From assembly GCF_023516435.1 (NCBI RefSeq), contig NZ_CP097332.1, forward strand, positions 1,116,001-1,180,000: DNA of 64,000 nt, read 5' to 3'. The notes beneath the pieces are model-generated. The model made no database searches, had not been told where the DNA came from, and worked only from the letters and a program-made list of their open reading frames with translations. Shown piece after piece: positions 1,130 through 59,746 of the stretch. The position numbers and the translations under genes were made by a program. The DNA comes from Jatrophihabitans telluris (GTDB lineage Bacteria; Actinomycetota; Actinomycetes; Mycobacteriales; Jatrophihabitantaceae). Within the stretch, counting starts at the first letter, position 1, and every line of letters starts with the position of its first letter.

Positions 1130-1555
1130 TCAGCGGTAGTAGCCCGCGACGGCCGCCCTGGCCTTGTCCGGTAGGAACGGTCCGTCGGTGGCGACGACCG
1201 GCCATCCAGCTCCGGGTTTGAGTTCTGCGAGCTGGTCGTTGGACAACGCGAACACCACGCGGCCCAGACCGGATCGCTCGATGGCTCCCGCGCACATCCG
1301 GCACGGCTCGCAGCTGGTGTAGAGGGTGGTCGTGGCCGCCTTCGGCCCGTCCAGGTTCTGCGCGGCCCAGCGGGCGAGTTTGAGTTCCGGGTGGGCGGTG
1401 ATGTCGTTGTCGGAGGTGACCGTGTTGTGGGCTTCGATCAGCACCCGGCCGTCGGCGTCCACCAGCAGCGATCCGAAGGGCGCGTCCCCGGACGTGCGGC
1501 CGGCCACGGCGAGGCGGATGGCGCGTTCCAGGTAGTGCTCGTCGGTTTCCCGCAT
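1130..1555 (-). CDS. nucleoside deaminase (CDA/TadA-like zinc hydrolase)
   Basis: This is a 141-residue zinc deaminase of the cytidine/guanine deaminase superfamily. It carries the 'AHPE' motif (zinc His plus proton-shuttle Glu) and the 'SCEPCRMC' motif (two zinc Cys). Such proteins deaminate guanine, cytosine or related bases; the substrate cannot be told from the sequence. The ATG at 1555 is preferred because a GGGG stretch lies just upstream. A longer start at 1609 would overlap the divergent VOC gene and has no ribosome-binding site. The gene is divergent from the VOC protein at 1599, with about 40 bases between them. Confidence 0.8.
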   Translation of the reverse strand: MRETDEHYLERAIRLAVAGRTSGDAPFGSLLVDADGRVLIEAHNTVTSDNDITAHPELKLARWAAQNLDGPKAATTTLYTSCEPCRMCAGAIERSGLGRVVFALSNDQLAELKPGAGWPVVATDGPFLPDKARAAVAGYYR

Positions 1556-1598
1556 GGCCCCAGTATGCCCGCCCGCATTGTCGGAGGGGTCCGGCACG

Positions 1599-2045
1599 AT
1601 GGTGGTCATGACAACGCGGTGGACCCTGACCTTCGATTGCGTGAATGCCCCGGCGCTGGCGGCGTTCTGGGCCGAGGCGCTCGGTTATCGACCGGCGCCG
1701 GCTCCCGACGGCTACGCCACCTGGGAACAGTGGCTGACCGCCTTCGAGGTGCCGGAGGACGAGTGGGACGACGGGGCCAATCTCGAAGATCCCGCCGGCC
1801 TCGGTCCGAACCTGTCGTTCCTCAAGGTGCCCGAACCCAAGGTGGTCAAGAACCGCCTGCACCTCGACCTCAGGGTGACCGGGGGTCGCAACGAGCCGGC
1901 TGAGCAGCGGCGAACGGCCATCCTGGCCAAGGCGGAGTACCTGGTCTCGCTCGGGGCGGTCCAGCTCGCCGAACACCGTTTCGGCGAGGTGCTCGACCAC
2001 CTCGTGATGGCCGACCCCGAGGGCAACGAGTTCTGCATCGTCTGA
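1599..2045 (+). CDS. VOC (glyoxalase/bleomycin-resistance-like) family protein
   Basis: A protein of about 148 residues with one vicinal-oxygen-chelate-like fold. It opens with 'WTLTFDCVNAPALAAFWAEALGY' split over the first beta-alpha unit and ends 'MADPEGNEFCIV', the usual C-terminal strand of this family. Members are metal-dependent isomerases, dioxygenases or binding proteins, so the substrate is unknown. The start is set by GGAGG at 1583-1587, 11 bases before the ATG at 1599; an internal ATG at 1608 is the alternative. The stop touches the first unit of the 32-bp repeat array. Confidence 0.75.
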   Translation: MVVMTTRWTLTFDCVNAPALAAFWAEALGYRPAPAPDGYATWEQWLTAFEVPEDEWDDGANLEDPAGLGPNLSFLKVPEPKVVKNRLHLDLRVTGGRNEPAEQRRTAILAKAEYLVSLGAVQLAEHRFGEVLDHLVMADPEGNEFCIV

Positions 2046-2172
2046 CCCGTTGAGGTTGCCCTCGTTGCGCCCGCCGGCCCGTTGAGGTTGCCCTTGTTGC
2101 GCCCGCCGGCCCGTTGAGGTTGCCCTTGTTGCGCCCCCGGCCCGTTGAGGTCGCCCTCGTTGCTCAGTCCGG
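2046..2172. repeat. 32-bp tandem repeat array, four units
   Basis: Units start at 2046, 2078, 2110 and 2141; the third is 31 bp. The core reads GTTGAGGTTGCCCTCGTTG on the plus strand. The last unit runs into the 3' end of dinB and includes its stop codon (2164-2166), so the array looks like tandem duplication of the gene's tail. The same core and period recur at 24883-25037 in the opposite orientation. There are no unique spacers between units, so this is not CRISPR. Confidence 0.92.
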
Positions 2173-3387
2173 CAGTAGCGGGACACTCGGACCGGCGTCA
2201 CGGCCGAGCAGGACACCGCGGGTCAGCGACAAGGTGCCGTAGCGGTCGCGAACCCGATCGACGGCGACGTCGAGATCGTGAGAGTCCCGCCGGGTAAAGG
2301 GGAGTTCGAGCTGGACGGCCTCGGCGTCGTCGAGGTTGGCCAGCGTCACACCGACCAGGGTCAGGCCGCGTTCGCCGATCAACGGAGCGCACGAGCGCAA
2401 CAGCGACCGCAGGGCCGAGAGCACGGTCGCGGTGTCGTCGGTGGCCGCGGGCAAGGTGTGCGAGCGCGTGATGCGAGCGAAGTCGCCGAAGCGCAGCCGG
2501 AGCACGACGGTGCGGCACAGCCGTCCCGCGGTTCTCAGCCGGCGACACACCCGCTCGACGAGCCCGATGAGCCGTGCCTGGAGTTCGTCCGGGCGTAGGC
2601 CACGCTGTCCGAGCGCGCTCTGGGCCCCGATGGAGCGGCGACGGCGACCGGTCACGACGGGCCGGGGATCGCGGTTGTGCGCCAGAGCGTGCAGGTGCCG
2701 ACCCGACGCCGGACCCAACATCGCGACCAGGGACTTCTCCTCCAGAGCCGCGACCTCGGCCACGGTGTGGATGCCGCGCTCGTGCAACTTGTCGGCGGTC
2801 TTCTGGCCGACCCCCCAGAGTTTCTGCACCGGCAGCGGATGGAGGAAGGCGAGTTCGTCGGCGGTACGCACCACCAGCAGACCGTCCGGCTTGGCCACGC
2901 CGCTGGCGACCTTGGCCAGGAACTTCGTCCGGGCCACGCCGACGGTGATGGCCAGCCCGACCCGTTCCAGCACCGCCCCGCGAAGCCGGACGGCGATGTC
3001 GTGGGGTGAGCCGGCGATGGTGGCCAGCCCCCGGACGTCCAGGAACGCCTCGTCGATGGACAACGCCTCCACCAGCGGGGTGGTGTCGTCGAAGACCGCG
3101 AAGACGGCCTTGCTCGCGGCGGAGTAGGCCGACATGCGGGGCGGCACGACAACCGCCTCTGGGCACAGCGCACGAGCCCGCCGGCCGCCCATCGCGGTGC
3201 GGACGCCGAAGGCGCGAGCTTCGTAGCTGGCCGCGAGCACCACGCCGGCTCCGACGATCACCGGACGGCCACGCAGCCAGGGGTGGTCCCGCTGCTCGAC
3301 CGAGGCGTAGAAGGCGTCCAGATCGGCGTGCAGGATGCCGGGATCAGCGGTGTGCGAGGACTCGGCCACGTGGCAATATTCGCACAT
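2164..3387 (-). CDS. dinB: DNA polymerase IV (Y-family translesion polymerase)
   Basis: A 407-residue DinB homologue, which copies past damaged bases with low fidelity. The N-terminal metal site is in 'ILHADLDAFYASVEQ' and the catalytic acidic pair is in 'SIDEAFLDV'. The helix-hairpin-helix thumb ('LWGVGQKTADKL') and little-finger region follow. The ATG at 3387 has no good ribosome-binding site and overlaps a LexA-box-like sequence, so the in-frame GTG six codons downstream may be the real start. The 3' end is embedded in the 32-bp repeat array. Confidence 0.93.
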   Translation of the reverse strand: MCEYCHVAESSHTADPGILHADLDAFYASVEQRDHPWLRGRPVIVGAGVVLAASYEARAFGVRTAMGGRRARALCPEAVVVPPRMSAYSAASKAVFAVFDDTTPLVEALSIDEAFLDVRGLATIAGSPHDIAVRLRGAVLERVGLAITVGVARTKFLAKVASGVAKPDGLLVVRTADELAFLHPLPVQKLWGVGQKTADKLHERGIHTVAEVAALEEKSLVAMLGPASGRHLHALAHNRDPRPVVTGRRRRSIGAQSALGQRGLRPDELQARLIGLVERVCRRLRTAGRLCRTVVLRLRFGDFARITRSHTLPAATDDTATVLSALRSLLRSCAPLIGERGLTLVGVTLANLDDAEAVQLELPFTRRDSHDLDVAVDRVRDRYGTLSLTRGVLLGRDAGPSVPLLPD

Positions 3388-24416: not shown

Positions 24417-24848
24417 TCAGGAGCCGGGTTTGTAGACCATCAAGACCACGATGGCCACGTACAGCAACGCGACGATGCCGCCACCGGCCGCCACCCGCCC
24501 GGCCAGGTTCGCGGCCGACGATCCGTTCCGCAAGGCCGTCGCGGCCCCCTGCAAGTTCGGCAGGATCAGGGAGAAGACCAAGCCCGACGCGACGAACCAC
24601 AACACCAGGGCCGTCCAGACCCAGGTGTCGCCGAAGCTGTGGTCGTACCTGGGTTGCACCAGGCCCACGCCCAGGATGGCGACGACCACCGACAGGTAGC
24701 CGTAGATCTTCACCGTCCGGGCCGATGACGCGACGGCGTTGGCGTCGGCCGCCTTGATTCCGCGGGCCGCCGTCGTCGCGGCGTGAACCAGCGGGCCGAT
24801 GGCGAAGATTGCGAAGACGATGTGCAGGGTCTCCAGAAGATGCCGCAT
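24417..24848 (-). CDS. four-helix membrane protein (DUF2269-like)
   Basis: A 143-residue protein with hydrophobic segments at about 4-25, 47-67, 78-98 and 119-138. The first helix 'LLETLHIVFAIFAIGPLVHA' and the overall four-helix layout resemble DUF2269 integral membrane proteins, whose function is unknown. It is followed within 2 bases by a GNAT gene. Its upstream region is occupied by the second 32-bp repeat array and a strong hairpin. Confidence 0.7.
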   Translation of the reverse strand: MRHLLETLHIVFAIFAIGPLVHAATTAARGIKAADANAVASSARTVKIYGYLSVVVAILGVGLVQPRYDHSFGDTWVWTALVLWFVASGLVFSLILPNLQGAATALRNGSSAANLAGRVAAGGGIVALLYVAIVVLMVYKPGS

Positions 24849-24869
24849 CCCGCCAGGCTAACCCGTCGG

Positions 24870-25037
24870 GGTTGCCCTCGTTGTGAGCAACGAGGGCAAC
24901 CTCAAGGGTGGTGGGTGAGCAACGAGGGCAACCTCAACGGTGGTGGGTGAGCAACGAGGGCAACCTCAACGGTGGTGGGTGAGCAACGAGGGCAACCTCA
25001 ACGGTGGTGGGTGAGCAACGAGGGCAACCTCAACGGT
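24870..25037. repeat. 32-bp tandem repeat array, five units, led by a perfect hairpin
   Basis: Units start at 24883, 24915, 24947, 24979 and 25011, exactly 32 bp apart. The core GAGCAACGAGGGCAACCTCA is the reverse complement of the 2046-2172 array core. The first unit is preceded by a mirror copy: GGTTGCCCTCGTTG (24870-24883) pairs perfectly with CAACGAGGGCAACC (24888-24901) across a 4-nt loop. The array ends 2 bases before the VWA stop codon and could act as its terminator. Confidence 0.93.
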
Positions 25038-25039
25038 TC

Positions 25040-27010
25040 TCAGCCGGCGCGGCGGGAGCCGCCTCGACGGCGTCCACCCCGCGCGGACAAGTAGTCCGAC
25101 ACGACGTACTCACCCAGCGCGCCGGTCTTGGGCAGGAACACCCGACCGCCGTTGCGCTGTCCGACCTCGTGCATGAAGTTCACCAGTCGCGGCTCGTCGT
25201 CCAGCATGAACACGTTGATCGTTGCGCCGCGGCGGGTGCATCGCTCGACCTCGGCCAACGTTGCGGCGATCGTCTCGTCCGAGGGCGGCCAGCTGAACTC
25301 GGAGAAGCCGTCCGGGGCCAGATGTGCGGTCGGCTCACCGTCGGTGATGACCAGGATGACCGGTTCCGCGTCTCGGTGCCGGTCCAGATGGCGGCGCGCC
25401 AACATCAGCGCGTGCTGCAGATTCGTGCCTTGCACGGCCTGCCAGTCGTGATCGACGAGATCGCGCGGACTCATCGTCCGGGCGTAGTCGGCGAAGCCGA
25501 TGATCTCGATCGCGTCCTGCGGATACTTCATCGTCACGAGTGCGTGCAGGGCCAGCGCGGTCGTCTTCGCCTCGCCCCAGCTGCCGCGCAGCTCCATCGA
25601 GTACGACATGTCGACCAGCAGCGCCACGGCAGCCGAGGACCGACGTTCGGTCTCGACGACCTCGAAGTCCTCGGGTTGGAAGCGGACACGCGCGCCTGAG
25701 CGCCCCTCGCCTCGCAAGACCGCATTGCGGACGGTTCGAACGACGTCCAATGGCTGCTCGTCACCGAACTGCCAGGCTCGGCTGGCTCCGGTGATCTCCC
25801 CGGCGGCGCCGGCGTCGCGCACGTCGTGGTCACCACGGCCACCTGACTCCAACTGTGCGAACACCCGTCGCAGGGCCGTGGACCCCAGCCGTCGCAGGGC
25901 TTTGGGGCTCAGCTGCAGGCCCTCGCCGCCCTGGTCGAGGTAGCCCTGACGCCGCAGTTCCTGTTCGATGCGCTTGAGCTGCTCGAGGTCGGTGACCGCG
26001 CCCTGGCCCAGCGCGCGCTGGACCAGTTCCTCGTCGATGTCGCCCAGGCTGGCGCCGGGATAGTCCTGCAGGGCGAGATCGGCCAGCTCGTCCAGATCGG
26101 CCAGCTCGGACAGGGCAGAAGTGCCGTCGGCGTAGCCCATCGGCTGGTCGCCGTTCATGCGTTCCCGCCCGGTCCAGCGCAGGTCCGGACGGGCCGCACG
26201 CAGCGATTGCTGCAGCCGCGACATCTCCCCGGCCAACCCGGACTGGGCCAGCGCCTGCTCCATGAGCTCGCCGAGTTCGGCGCGCTGCTCGGCCGACAAC
26301 GAATTCATCAGCCGCTCGGCCGCCGCCGCCCGACGGGCCAGCGAATCAACCAGCTCGGCGAGATTCTCCGGGTTCTCCGGAAAGAATTCACCGTGCTTGT
26401 CCATGAAATCAGCGAATTGTTCCTGCGTGTGTTCGCCCCGCGCGTCCGCGTCGAGCATTTCGTTGAGGTCGTGCATCATCTCGCGGATCGCCTGCATGGC
26501 CTGCGGGTCAGGGTTCGACAGCGCCTGCCTCATGCCGGCGAACTGGGCGTCGAGTACCTCCGAGCGCAACAGCTCCGAGATCTCCTGGTAAGCCTGCGCG
26601 GCCTCCGGGGAGCGCCACTGGTAGTCGGCCAGATCGCGAACCGCGCGTGCGGTGTCCTCAGGCAGGTTGTCCAGTTCGGCCTCGGCCATCCGGGCCAGGT
26701 CGTCAGGGTCGGGGAACAGCGCGGCGCGCTCGGCCTCCAGGGCCTTGTCGAGCAGCTCGCGGACCTGGTCCAACGTGCCGTTGAGTCGTCCGGAGTTGCG
26801 CAGTTCCTTGGCACGGCGCCGGGCGCGCTGACGCAACGCTTCGAGCCCGTTGCTTCCGGTGGTGCCCTGGCGCATCAGGCGCGACAGCGCCGAGCGCGGG
26901 GACATCCCGGCCAGGACGTCGTCGCCCATCTCGTCCAGGGCTCGCCGGATGTCGTACGGGGCCTCCAACGGATCGGGACCGCCGTGCCAGGCGCCATAAC
27001 GAAACGGCAT
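25040..27010 (-). CDS. VWA-domain protein partnered with a MoxR ATPase
   Basis: A 656-residue protein. Residues 1-400 are helical and Ala/Glu-rich, and the C-terminal von Willebrand A domain starts near 467. Its MIDAS metal site is complete: 'DMSYS' at 467-471, a Thr in 'GTNLQHAL' (about 529) and 'ITDGEPT' (Asp about 557). It ends in an Arg/Gly-rich tail. The gene is 3 bases downstream of the AAA ATPase, the usual MoxR/VWA arrangement, in which the pair acts as a chaperone or metal-insertase-like machine. The client is unknown. Confidence 0.87.
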   Translation of the reverse strand: MPFRYGAWHGGPDPLEAPYDIRRALDEMGDDVLAGMSPRSALSRLMRQGTTGSNGLEALRQRARRRAKELRNSGRLNGTLDQVRELLDKALEAERAALFPDPDDLARMAEAELDNLPEDTARAVRDLADYQWRSPEAAQAYQEISELLRSEVLDAQFAGMRQALSNPDPQAMQAIREMMHDLNEMLDADARGEHTQEQFADFMDKHGEFFPENPENLAELVDSLARRAAAAERLMNSLSAEQRAELGELMEQALAQSGLAGEMSRLQQSLRAARPDLRWTGRERMNGDQPMGYADGTSALSELADLDELADLALQDYPGASLGDIDEELVQRALGQGAVTDLEQLKRIEQELRRQGYLDQGGEGLQLSPKALRRLGSTALRRVFAQLESGGRGDHDVRDAGAAGEITGASRAWQFGDEQPLDVVRTVRNAVLRGEGRSGARVRFQPEDFEVVETERRSSAAVALLVDMSYSMELRGSWGEAKTTALALHALVTMKYPQDAIEIIGFADYARTMSPRDLVDHDWQAVQGTNLQHALMLARRHLDRHRDAEPVILVITDGEPTAHLAPDGFSEFSWPPSDETIAATLAEVERCTRRGATINVFMLDDEPRLVNFMHEVGQRNGGRVFLPKTGALGEYVVSDYLSARGGRRRGGSRRAG

Positions 27011-30421: not shown

Positions 30422-30423
30422 TC

Positions 30424-30493
30424 GCAGACGACTCAGCAGCGCAGACGACTCAGCAGCGCGGACGACTCAGCAGCGCGCGGATGACTCAGTAGC
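30424..30493. repeat. 17-bp tandem repeat at the arfB stop codon, four units
   Basis: Units of the type GCAGACGACTCAGCAGC lie at 30424-30440, 30441-30457 and 30458-30474, with a 19-bp variant at 30475-30493. The last unit contains the arfB stop (30486-30488). The array therefore looks like repeated duplication of the gene's tail, comparable to the array at the dinB stop. Confidence 0.88.
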
Positions 30494-30974
30494 GCTCGGT
30501 AGACCGGACCCGGGTTCTGCCCGCCTTGAGCTCGGCACGATGCCGTTTGCCGTCCAACCGACGCTCCCGCGACGCGCGGGAGGGCTTGGTCGCGCGGCGC
30601 GGTGCCGGCGGCGGTTGCAGGGCTTGGGCTAGCAGCACCGCCAGCCGTCCACGAGCCGCAGCCCGGTTCTGCAGCTGCGATCGCTGTTCGGAGGCCGTCA
30701 GGGCGAGCACCCCGTCCACCAGACGACCGGCCAGCGCGGTCCGGACCCGGTCGCGCTGGACATCGTCCAGGGTGGTCGAGCGGCCGACGTCGAAACGCAG
30801 CTCGACCCGGCTGTCGGTGGTGTTCACACCCTGGCCGCCAGGTCCGGACGAGCGGGAGAACCGTTCCACCAGTTCCGCCGCGGGGATGGTCAGTCCCTGC
30901 GGAATGCCCCGACCAGCCGGGAGGACGAGGTCTCCTGGCGTGCTGGGGCGATCGGACTGACTGCGGGTGGGCAC
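30486..30974 (-). CDS. arfB: alternative ribosome-rescue peptidyl-tRNA hydrolase
   Basis: A 162-residue release-factor-like protein (ArfB/YaeJ). The catalytic GGQ motif is at 46-48 in 'SGPGGQGVN'. There is no codon-recognition domain, and the tail is Arg/Lys-rich ('RERRLDGKRHRAELKAG'), which in this family enters the empty mRNA channel. It frees ribosomes stalled without a stop codon. GTG 30974 is the only good start and makes the gene overlap the 3' end of the upstream transporter by 85 bases. Confidence 0.88.
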   Translation of the reverse strand: MPTRSQSDRPSTPGDLVLPAGRGIPQGLTIPAAELVERFSRSSGPGGQGVNTTDSRVELRFDVGRSTTLDDVQRDRVRTALAGRLVDGVLALTASEQRSQLQNRAAARGRLAVLLAQALQPPPAPRRATKPSRASRERRLDGKRHRAELKAGRTRVRSTERY

Positions 30975-31948: not shown

Positions 31949-32046
31949 CCCGCCCCCGCCCCCGCCCCCGCGGCCGCCGCCCGACCCGACCTGCCCCGAC
32001 CCGACCCGACCTGCCCCGACCTGCCCGACCTGCCCCGACCTGCCCC
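31949..32046. repeat. low-complexity C-rich tract with CCGACCTGCC repeats
   Basis: About 100 bases of nearly pure plus-strand C/G: a (CGCCCC)n run at 31949-31971, then repeated CCGACC and CCTGCC units to 32046. No reading frame or dyad explains it. It separates the marR stop from the operator region and may be slippage-prone. Confidence 0.85.
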
Positions 32047-58876: not shown

Positions 58877-59746
58877 ATGTGCGTGACCTGCGGCTGCGGC
58901 AACGACCAGAACACTCGGCTGATCGAGGTCGGCCGGCCGCACAGCCACGGCCACAGCCACAGCCACAGCCATGACCATGACCATGACCATGACCATGACC
59001 ATGACGGTCACGTCTTCGCCACCGGGCATGAGTACTTGGCCACCGTTGCGACCACCGAGACCCTCGTGCTGGAGGAGCGGGTGCTGGCCAAGAACGATGC
59101 TCTGGCTGAAGCGAACCGCCGCTGGCTGCACAGTCGTCACGCGATGGCGGTCAATCTGATGAGTTCTCCCGGGTCGGGTAAGACGACCTTGCTGGAACGC
59201 ACGATCCGTGAGCTCGGCAGCACGCTGACGATGTCGGTGATCGAAGGCGACCAGGAGACGACGTTCGACGCCGAACGAATCAGGGCCGCGGGTGCCCCGG
59301 TGCTGCAGATCAACACCGGTGCCGGGTGCCATCTCGACGCGGTCATGGTCGAAACGGCTTTGCGCACCCTCGACCCCGCACGGGGGATCGTGCTCATCGA
59401 GAACGTGGGCAATCTCGTCTGCCCGGCTCTGTTCGATCTGGGGGAGGATGTCCGGGTCGTCATCGTGTCAGTGACCGAGGGCGCGGACAAGCCACTGAAG
59501 TACCCGCACATCTTCGTGTCGGCGACGGTCGTGCTGTTGAACAAGGTCGACCTGCTGCCCTACGTGGATTTCGACGTGCAGTCCTTCGAACGCGACGTAG
59601 TCCGCCTCAACGCCAACGCCCCCGTGTTACCGGTTTCGGCCACCCGTGGCGACGGGCTCGCAGCCTGGTACACGTGGTTGAGCCGGCGCGCACCCGGCCG
59701 AGGTTCGGATCGGCCTCGATTCCGCGACGAATCCACGGCGACCTAG
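58877..59746 (+). CDS. hypB: nickel-storing GTPase HypB
   Basis: A 289-residue SIMIBI GTPase that loads nickel with HypA. The N-terminal metal site is 'MCVTCGCGND', and a His-rich stretch (about 22-45) of HSHSHDHDHD type can store nickel. The P-loop is 'SSPGSGKTTLL' (about 96-106), with 'ENVGNLVCPALFDLGE' (G3 region) and 'NKVDLL' (G4). The His-rich region is encoded by CACAGC and CATGAC hexamer repeats at about 58941-59008. ATG 58877 follows the hypA stop directly. It converges on the GMC gene with a 4-base overlap. Confidence 0.95.
   Translation: MCVTCGCGNDQNTRLIEVGRPHSHGHSHSHSHDHDHDHDHDHDGHVFATGHEYLATVATTETLVLEERVLAKNDALAEANRRWLHSRHAMAVNLMSSPGSGKTTLLERTIRELGSTLTMSVIEGDQETTFDAERIRAAGAPVLQINTGAGCHLDAVMVETALRTLDPARGIVLIENVGNLVCPALFDLGEDVRVVIVSVTEGADKPLKYPHIFVSATVVLLNKVDLLPYVDFDVQSFERDVVRLNANAPVLPVSATRGDGLAAWYTWLSRRAPGRGSDRPRFRDESTAT

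Follow-up and report, generated by a model that had tools for sequence, protein, structure and literature searches.

The window, by which we mean the whole 64,000-nucleotide stretch of DNA analysed here (positions 1116001–1180000 of the single 4,193,897-bp contig), contains two tandem arrays of one short repeat. Array 2 (24865–25034) lies between two open reading frames of the minus strand: upstream a gene for a VWA_2-domain protein (25040–27010; Pfam PF13519) and downstream a gene for a DUF2269 membrane protein (24417–24848; PF10027, 28.3 bits against a cut-off of 28). A previous reading of this DNA, made from sequence only, had described five units at exact 32-bp spacing, a perfect 14-bp hairpin with a 4-nt loop at their end, and an array filling the space between the two genes; all three descriptions proved accurate. 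Minus-strand cores start at 24888, 24920, 24952, 24984 and 25016. The gene-proximal unit 1 (25016–25034) is an exact GTTGAGGTTGCCCTCGTTG and starts 5 nt past the VWA stop codon; units 2 (24984–25002), 3 (24952–24970) and 4 (24920–24938) match the 21-mer CAACGAGGGCAACCTCAACGG, and the distal unit 5 (24888–24906) has C in place of G as its first base. TRF reports 24883–25037 as a tandem array of period 32, with 4.8 copies and 99% match. A lone opposite copy on the plus strand (24865–24883, two mismatches to the core) pairs with unit 5, forming the hairpin at 24870–24901, which was found both as an inverted repeat and by RNA folding (arms 24870–24883 and 24888–24901, loop 24884–24887). The array ends 16 nt before the DUF2269 start. 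The hairpin is followed by CCGACGGGTTAG and lacks the U tract that, together with a GC-rich hairpin, defines an intrinsic terminator.

Array 1 (2049–2162, plus strand) belongs to the same core family, with cores at 2049, 2081, 2113 and 2144 (spacings 32, 32 and 31), and occupies the 118-bp gap between the stop of a Glyoxalase_6 gene (open reading frame 1554–2045, plus strand; PF18029 for 1599–2042) and a convergent open reading frame (2164–3387, minus strand), named dinB in the sequence-only reading, whose stop lies 1 nt past the array. Ten matches to the 21-mer (≤3 mismatches) occur in the window, four in array 1 and six in array 2; dinucleotide-preserving shuffles gave 0.00. Unit sequence and period had been thought common to the two loci, and this holds for the 19-nt core and the period but not for the 13-nt linker, which is locus-specific. 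Likewise, array 2 had been called inverted; it does lie on the opposite strand, but in both arrays the core GTTGAGGTTGCCCTCGTTG is read in the sense of the preceding gene, starting 3 nt (Glyoxalase_6) or 5 nt (VWA) past the stop, so that the inversion reflects gene strand only.

A 32-bp repeat with local linkers

The earlier claim that the repeats form a dispersed family, which genes do not explain, is borne out genome-wide: the 19-mer GTTGASGTTGCCCTYGTTG has 467 exact copies in 4.19 Mb (230 forward, 237 reverse), against 0 for the reversed-pattern control, the 14-nt core GGTTGCCCTCGTTG has 238 copies and its variant GTTGASGTTGCCCTTGTTG 223. Anatomy was studied in the DNA around listed matches, about 1.0 Mb with the window, which contains 217 of the 238 14-mers; beyond about 2.4–2.8 Mb, copies of the second variant are only those among the matches listed. 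After exclusion of runs 60 nt or less from a locus edge and of lone copies with three or more mismatches, 468 copies (≤4 mismatches) were counted in this DNA; they make up 136 same-strand runs, of which 112 have at least two units, arranged in 92 clusters. Runs comprise 2–9 head-to-tail units; three two-unit runs inside gene calls (1412538, 2079123, 3496391) may be chance. Same-strand spacing is 32 bp in 298 of 332 cases, 31 bp in 22 and 33 bp in seven. The consensus, taken from 468 copies for the core and from 103 runs for the linker ends, is C-GTTGASGTTGCCCTYGTTG-CKSG.

Linkers are 13 nt long; within an array two of them are identical at a mean of 11.5 of 13 positions, whereas consensus linkers of different arrays agree at 5.8. 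Family-wide (103 runs) they begin and end with C and often have G at position 4, the remainder only leaning to C. They resemble their own surroundings: positions 7–12 match the upstream flank at 3.16 of 6 sites (shuffled 2.00) and positions 2–7 the downstream flank at 3.50 of 6 (shuffled 2.24), values that none of 5000 shuffles reached. Exact flank matches jointly spanning the whole linker occur in only eight of 103 runs. From this likeness we infer that the repeat unit was made at each locus from the core plus local DNA.

In the 78 arrays with at least three units, core mismatch is 1.4% per site (17 sites, polymorphic sites 6 and 15 left out) against 11.1% for the linkers of the same arrays; linker divergence is higher than core divergence in 61 arrays, equal in 11 and lower in six. 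With all 19 core sites, by unit pairs, the values are 2.4% and 11.7%. The detection limit of four mismatches could hide decayed cores from this comparison, but few units are skipped (a single 63-bp spacing among 332). Core and linker would be duplicated together, yet the core diverges less; hence the core is either selected or recopied. The suggestion that the arrays are recombination-driven agrees with the homogeneity of linkers within an array but not with the low divergence of the core.

The same figures bear on a neutral minisatellite, generated by replication slippage and unequal crossing-over only. Such a process would account for homogenised linkers, slightly more alike in neighbouring units (with mismatch of 10.4% between units at distance 1 and of 13.6% at distance 4), and for their resemblance to the flanks, but it predicts equal divergence of core and linker and leaves unexplained one core and one period in 92 clusters with different linkers. 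We consider it extremely improbable: slippage and crossing-over are contradicted as a full account and could explain no more than the amplification step. Same core, same period and local linkers at many places raise the question of how a unit of fixed length is made. A putative enzyme might first write the 19-nt core at the end of a gene and afterwards duplicate, again and again, the 32 bp around it, made up of the core and about 13 nt of the local DNA beside it. We regard this as improbable; if true, such fixed-length writing would work like a ruler, much as CRISPR repeats are duplicated but with no spacers, and would have given some 90 places one period with local linkers.

Distribution in the genome and absence from relatives

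Array clusters are unevenly spread. In 0–2.437 Mb, where both match lists are complete, 43 clusters lie below 1.4 Mb and nine above (P 0.0002), the stretch 1.4–2.44 Mb of the contig thus being sparse, with nine of the 52. Regional clustering is modest, 19 of 43 clusters having a neighbour within 5 kb against a uniform expectation of 11.2 (P 0.026). The coarse skew of sampled stretches changes sign, weakly, near 2.4–2.5 Mb, which weakly suggests that the cluster-sparse part lies near the replication terminus. The contig start was considered as an origin with dnaA and rejected, three genes in the first 20 kb being those for a glycosidase, a lectin-type protein and a solute-binding protein. Twenty 20-kb stretches of the same genome gave one weak pair; they were picked with the first match lists known and 13 fall in the sparse 1.4–2.9 Mb, and this biased sample was discarded as a measure of array density.

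Elsewhere in the order the 19-mer has a single match in one of 396 other genomes, and there are no matches in eight genus mates. A 14-mer scan of 60 relatives gave 0–5 matches each (26 in total), and each of the ten places inspected has one exact copy, in surroundings that contain an open frame of 180 codons or more. One match was found in each of 31 viral contigs. Three exact 21-mer matches in named genomes, two in Streptomyces and one in a Mycobacterium MAG, were rejected as homologues: those in Streptomyces are one match each amid many coding-type repeats, presumably RHS/YD repeats from their pattern, and that in the MAG is one match in a stretch with a long open frame. The sequence-only reading held that an element family would be unlikely if the genome had no further copies and relatives lacked both arrays. 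Many more copies were counted, and so the first of these fails; the second holds in the genomes searched.

In all eight genus mates the VWA protein has an orthologue, 83–89% identical over its last 334 aa, and the 3' side was compared by eye in six (G001–G004, G006 and G007). The genus mates have no array at the three loci compared. In G004 and G006 the VWA–DUF2269 order is kept with a short, array-free gap (34 nt in G006 against 191 nt here), in G007 there is a longer gap with a long unrelated hairpin, and in G002 and G003 a hairpin past the stop and a different convergent neighbour. Hairpins lie directly behind the VWA stop in G007, G003, G001 and G002 (loci L148, L151, L152 and L153), those of G003 and G002 being alike. 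The G001 hairpin was rejected as a second repeat family, its arm occurring only at that place in 25 genomes searched. Past the VWA stop, L151 and L153 are rich in short GTCTTGGCC-type repeats, probably within a convergent lysine/alanine/threonine-rich gene. Behind lsr2 (Pfam), which is followed by a gene that we take to be clpC, G003 has a 10-bp hairpin 6 nt past the stop, by eye, in place of the four units found here. At 769782, G003 is without the array and DNA further downstream is still alike. No tandem repeats of period 25–45 (not a multiple of three) with at least 2.5 copies were found in 630 kb of genus-mate DNA, which comes in part from many-contig drafts where repeats can be lost; one 32-bp repeat of other sequence (L102, 1.9 copies) lies below that cut. 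Hundreds of copies here, and no arrays in the related genomes searched, point to a gene-end element that spread recently.

Orientation at gene ends and facing copies

By our own codon-usage gene calls, which are not those of a standard gene finder, a same-sense stop lies no more than 30 nt from the start of 71 of the 112 runs and no more than 20 nt from that of 68; at the 30-nt limit, random intergenic places score 9.2% and the real runs with their orientation flipped score 21 of 112. Nineteen runs stand at distance −5, where a TGA inside the core is the stop codon of the gene. Runs outside gene calls number 103 of 112, and nine overlap one. The remaining 41 are not directly behind a same-sense stop; some of these exceptional runs adjoin an opposite-sense start codon (122137, 2794545, 3364469) or lie between divergent genes (3229255, 2346514). 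The upstream genes of runs with at least four units are ordinary in the 17 of 41 tested (Lsr2, RNase H, aldehyde dehydrogenase, ketoacyl synthase and others). A tRNA or known RNA gene as the upstream gene of exceptional runs was rejected, ARAGORN finding four tRNAs in 26 loci and none directly upstream, and Rfam finding one tRNA and one mraW motif in 12 loci, the latter (RF01746, 53 bits against 50) near an array locus (L126:4540–4650, minus strand).

Opposite copies occur only as a facing run or copy. Of 44 facing pairs, 24 have a gap of 3–5 nt, 13 of 14–16 nt and seven another gap. The two modes are about one DNA turn apart. Taken together, the 20 gaps above 5 nt are phased (P 2.5e-5), an effect carried by the 13 gaps of 14–16 nt; the seven gaps above 16 nt show no helical phase (P 0.41), and so the phase argument consists of the 32-bp period and one further mode. 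A facing opposite copy is missing from 48 of 92 clusters, so the hairpin is a frequent extra and not a defining part. A single unit has a stem of only 4–5 bp, broken by a G6-to-C variant in 97 of 468 copies, and facing copies form a palindrome with a 3–5 nt loop in the 24 pairs of the shorter mode.

The core might work as RNA in the 3' UTR, through mRNA stabilisation, binding of a protein or small RNA, or stem-loop termination. This is possible if unlikely. Gene-sense orientation just past stop codons would fit it, as would pairing of units with one another through GAGG/CCCTC and the folding energy of array 2, which deepens from −30.4 to −59.3 kcal/mol once the opposite copy and 11 more bases are added; the broken stem within the unit argues against it, as do the 41 runs elsewhere and a folding excess that is only mild (85 runs, mean z −1.3 sense and −1.9 antisense against shuffles). 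As a test of terminator replacement by the arrays, hairpin content behind partnerless arrays does not differ clearly from that behind other genes: the best 40-nt fold reaches −20 kcal/mol or lower in 13% of 38 post-array stretches, in 23% of 250 and 29% of 83 stretches behind other genes, and in 13% of 274 upstream controls. Rho-site-like C richness was rejected, sense-strand C minus G having no consistent sign in 12 arrays.

Facing pairs also recall DNA-uptake signal sequences, whose copies spread by transformation bias. Those of Neisseria are often paired into terminators; such signals mostly stand singly and are common in coding DNA as well. Hundreds of exact copies and 24 short-looped pairs are what an uptake signal would give, but the 103 runs outside gene calls are tandem, and we judge this origin very improbable.

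Known repeats and a tentative reading

In a literature search this repeat was not found described; 13 nt of its core are present in the accessible text of one Leishmania paper. In the accessible text of one source, REPs are palindromes tagged with GTAG or CGTC, lie for the most part downstream of coding regions and between genes that are unidirectional or convergent, can provide stop codons, and form large clusters by tandem reiteration with flanking DNA of variable length (PMC3733652). The present repeats are similarly short, intergenic, high in copy number and mainly 3' of genes, can also provide a stop codon, and are likewise reiterated in tandem along with flanking DNA. They differ from REPs in tag, transposase, fixed period and orientation, and perhaps in palindrome: by the tag rule of that text, the consensus has no GTAG or CGTC end tag, and against a REP palindromic body of 20–40 bp the stem of the unit is short, palindromes arising between facing copies. 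A REP-type transposase had been named as an example of a common enzyme to look for; the Y1 (RAYT) profile PF01797 matched none of 13 genomes (our own and 12 relatives) and matched five of 14 control genomes, including E. coli. Hence the REP/RAYT route was not found, and the description of the family as mobile is unproven. BIMEs resemble the arrays in lying at gene ends with variable copy number, but BIME units alternate in orientation (accessible part of PMC2817692), unlike the head-to-tail, same-sense units of one period seen here. CRISPR arrays share identical, regularly spaced repeats; their spacers are unique, whereas linkers within one array here are alike, and the arrays are many, small and at gene ends. 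MIRU of mycobacteria are likewise intergenic tandem minisatellites, with units far longer than 32 bp. We read the 32-bp repeats as extragenic repeats of a REP/BIME-like kind with a new layout, and not as a REP.

A selfish repeat, moved by an enzyme other than the REP-type transposase, tolerated at gene ends and purged elsewhere, would be private to one species among the genomes searched, absent from the three loci in genus mates, modestly clustered by region, and common to its arrays in the core only, linkers differing between arrays; all of this is seen. We nevertheless hold it distinctly unlikely, given the strong orientation bias to the upstream gene, a core kept far beyond the linkers of the same array, the negative Y1 search, and no autonomous element having been identified.

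The family, its private distribution in the genomes searched, the fixed period, local linkers, excess core conservation and gene-sense position at gene ends are directly established. The reading that we tentatively prefer, and would give a little less than an even chance, is that these are species-private, REP/BIME-like repeats whose core is a putative protein-binding site and whose array is a putative transcript-end element. The 19-nt core GTTGASGTTGCCCTYGTTG, reiterated head to tail along with some 13 nt of its local flank so that cores stand 32 bp, or about three DNA turns, apart, could be a sequence-specific site for a putative DNA-binding protein. Such a protein is favoured by a spacing near whole helical turns, by facing gaps that step by one turn and by a core better conserved than its linkers. 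The array would have supplanted the 3' region that the preceding gene formerly had and would now be its transcript-end element; in about half of the clusters it would be closed by the facing opposite copy. Binding of gyrase or IHF characterises BIMEs, and BIME-2 has a gyrase role; the array might be a roadblock, a terminator or a BIME-2-like site that buffers topology. Gene-sense position behind stops and the hairpin at the lsr2 site of a relative favour a role at the transcript end; a pure terminator fits badly, given the 41 exceptional runs, some of them at starts or between divergent genes.

This is a large, young-looking and well-ordered family of extragenic repeats in a GC-rich genome, probably actinobacterial since it has lsr2, where no transposase of the kind that explains REPs was found. 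Its position behind stop codons makes the takeover of a gene's transcript end by a repeat directly testable within one genus.

The window also carries other short repeats: a 17-bp tandem repeat CGCGGACGACTCAGCAG at 30423–30495 (4.2 copies, period not a multiple of three), a 10-bp repeat CCCGACCTGC at 31985–32046 (6.3 copies) overlapped by a 19-bp unit, and two adjoining hexamer repeats at 58940–59005, CACAGC (5.3 copies) and then CCATGA (6.2 copies), with 100% match.
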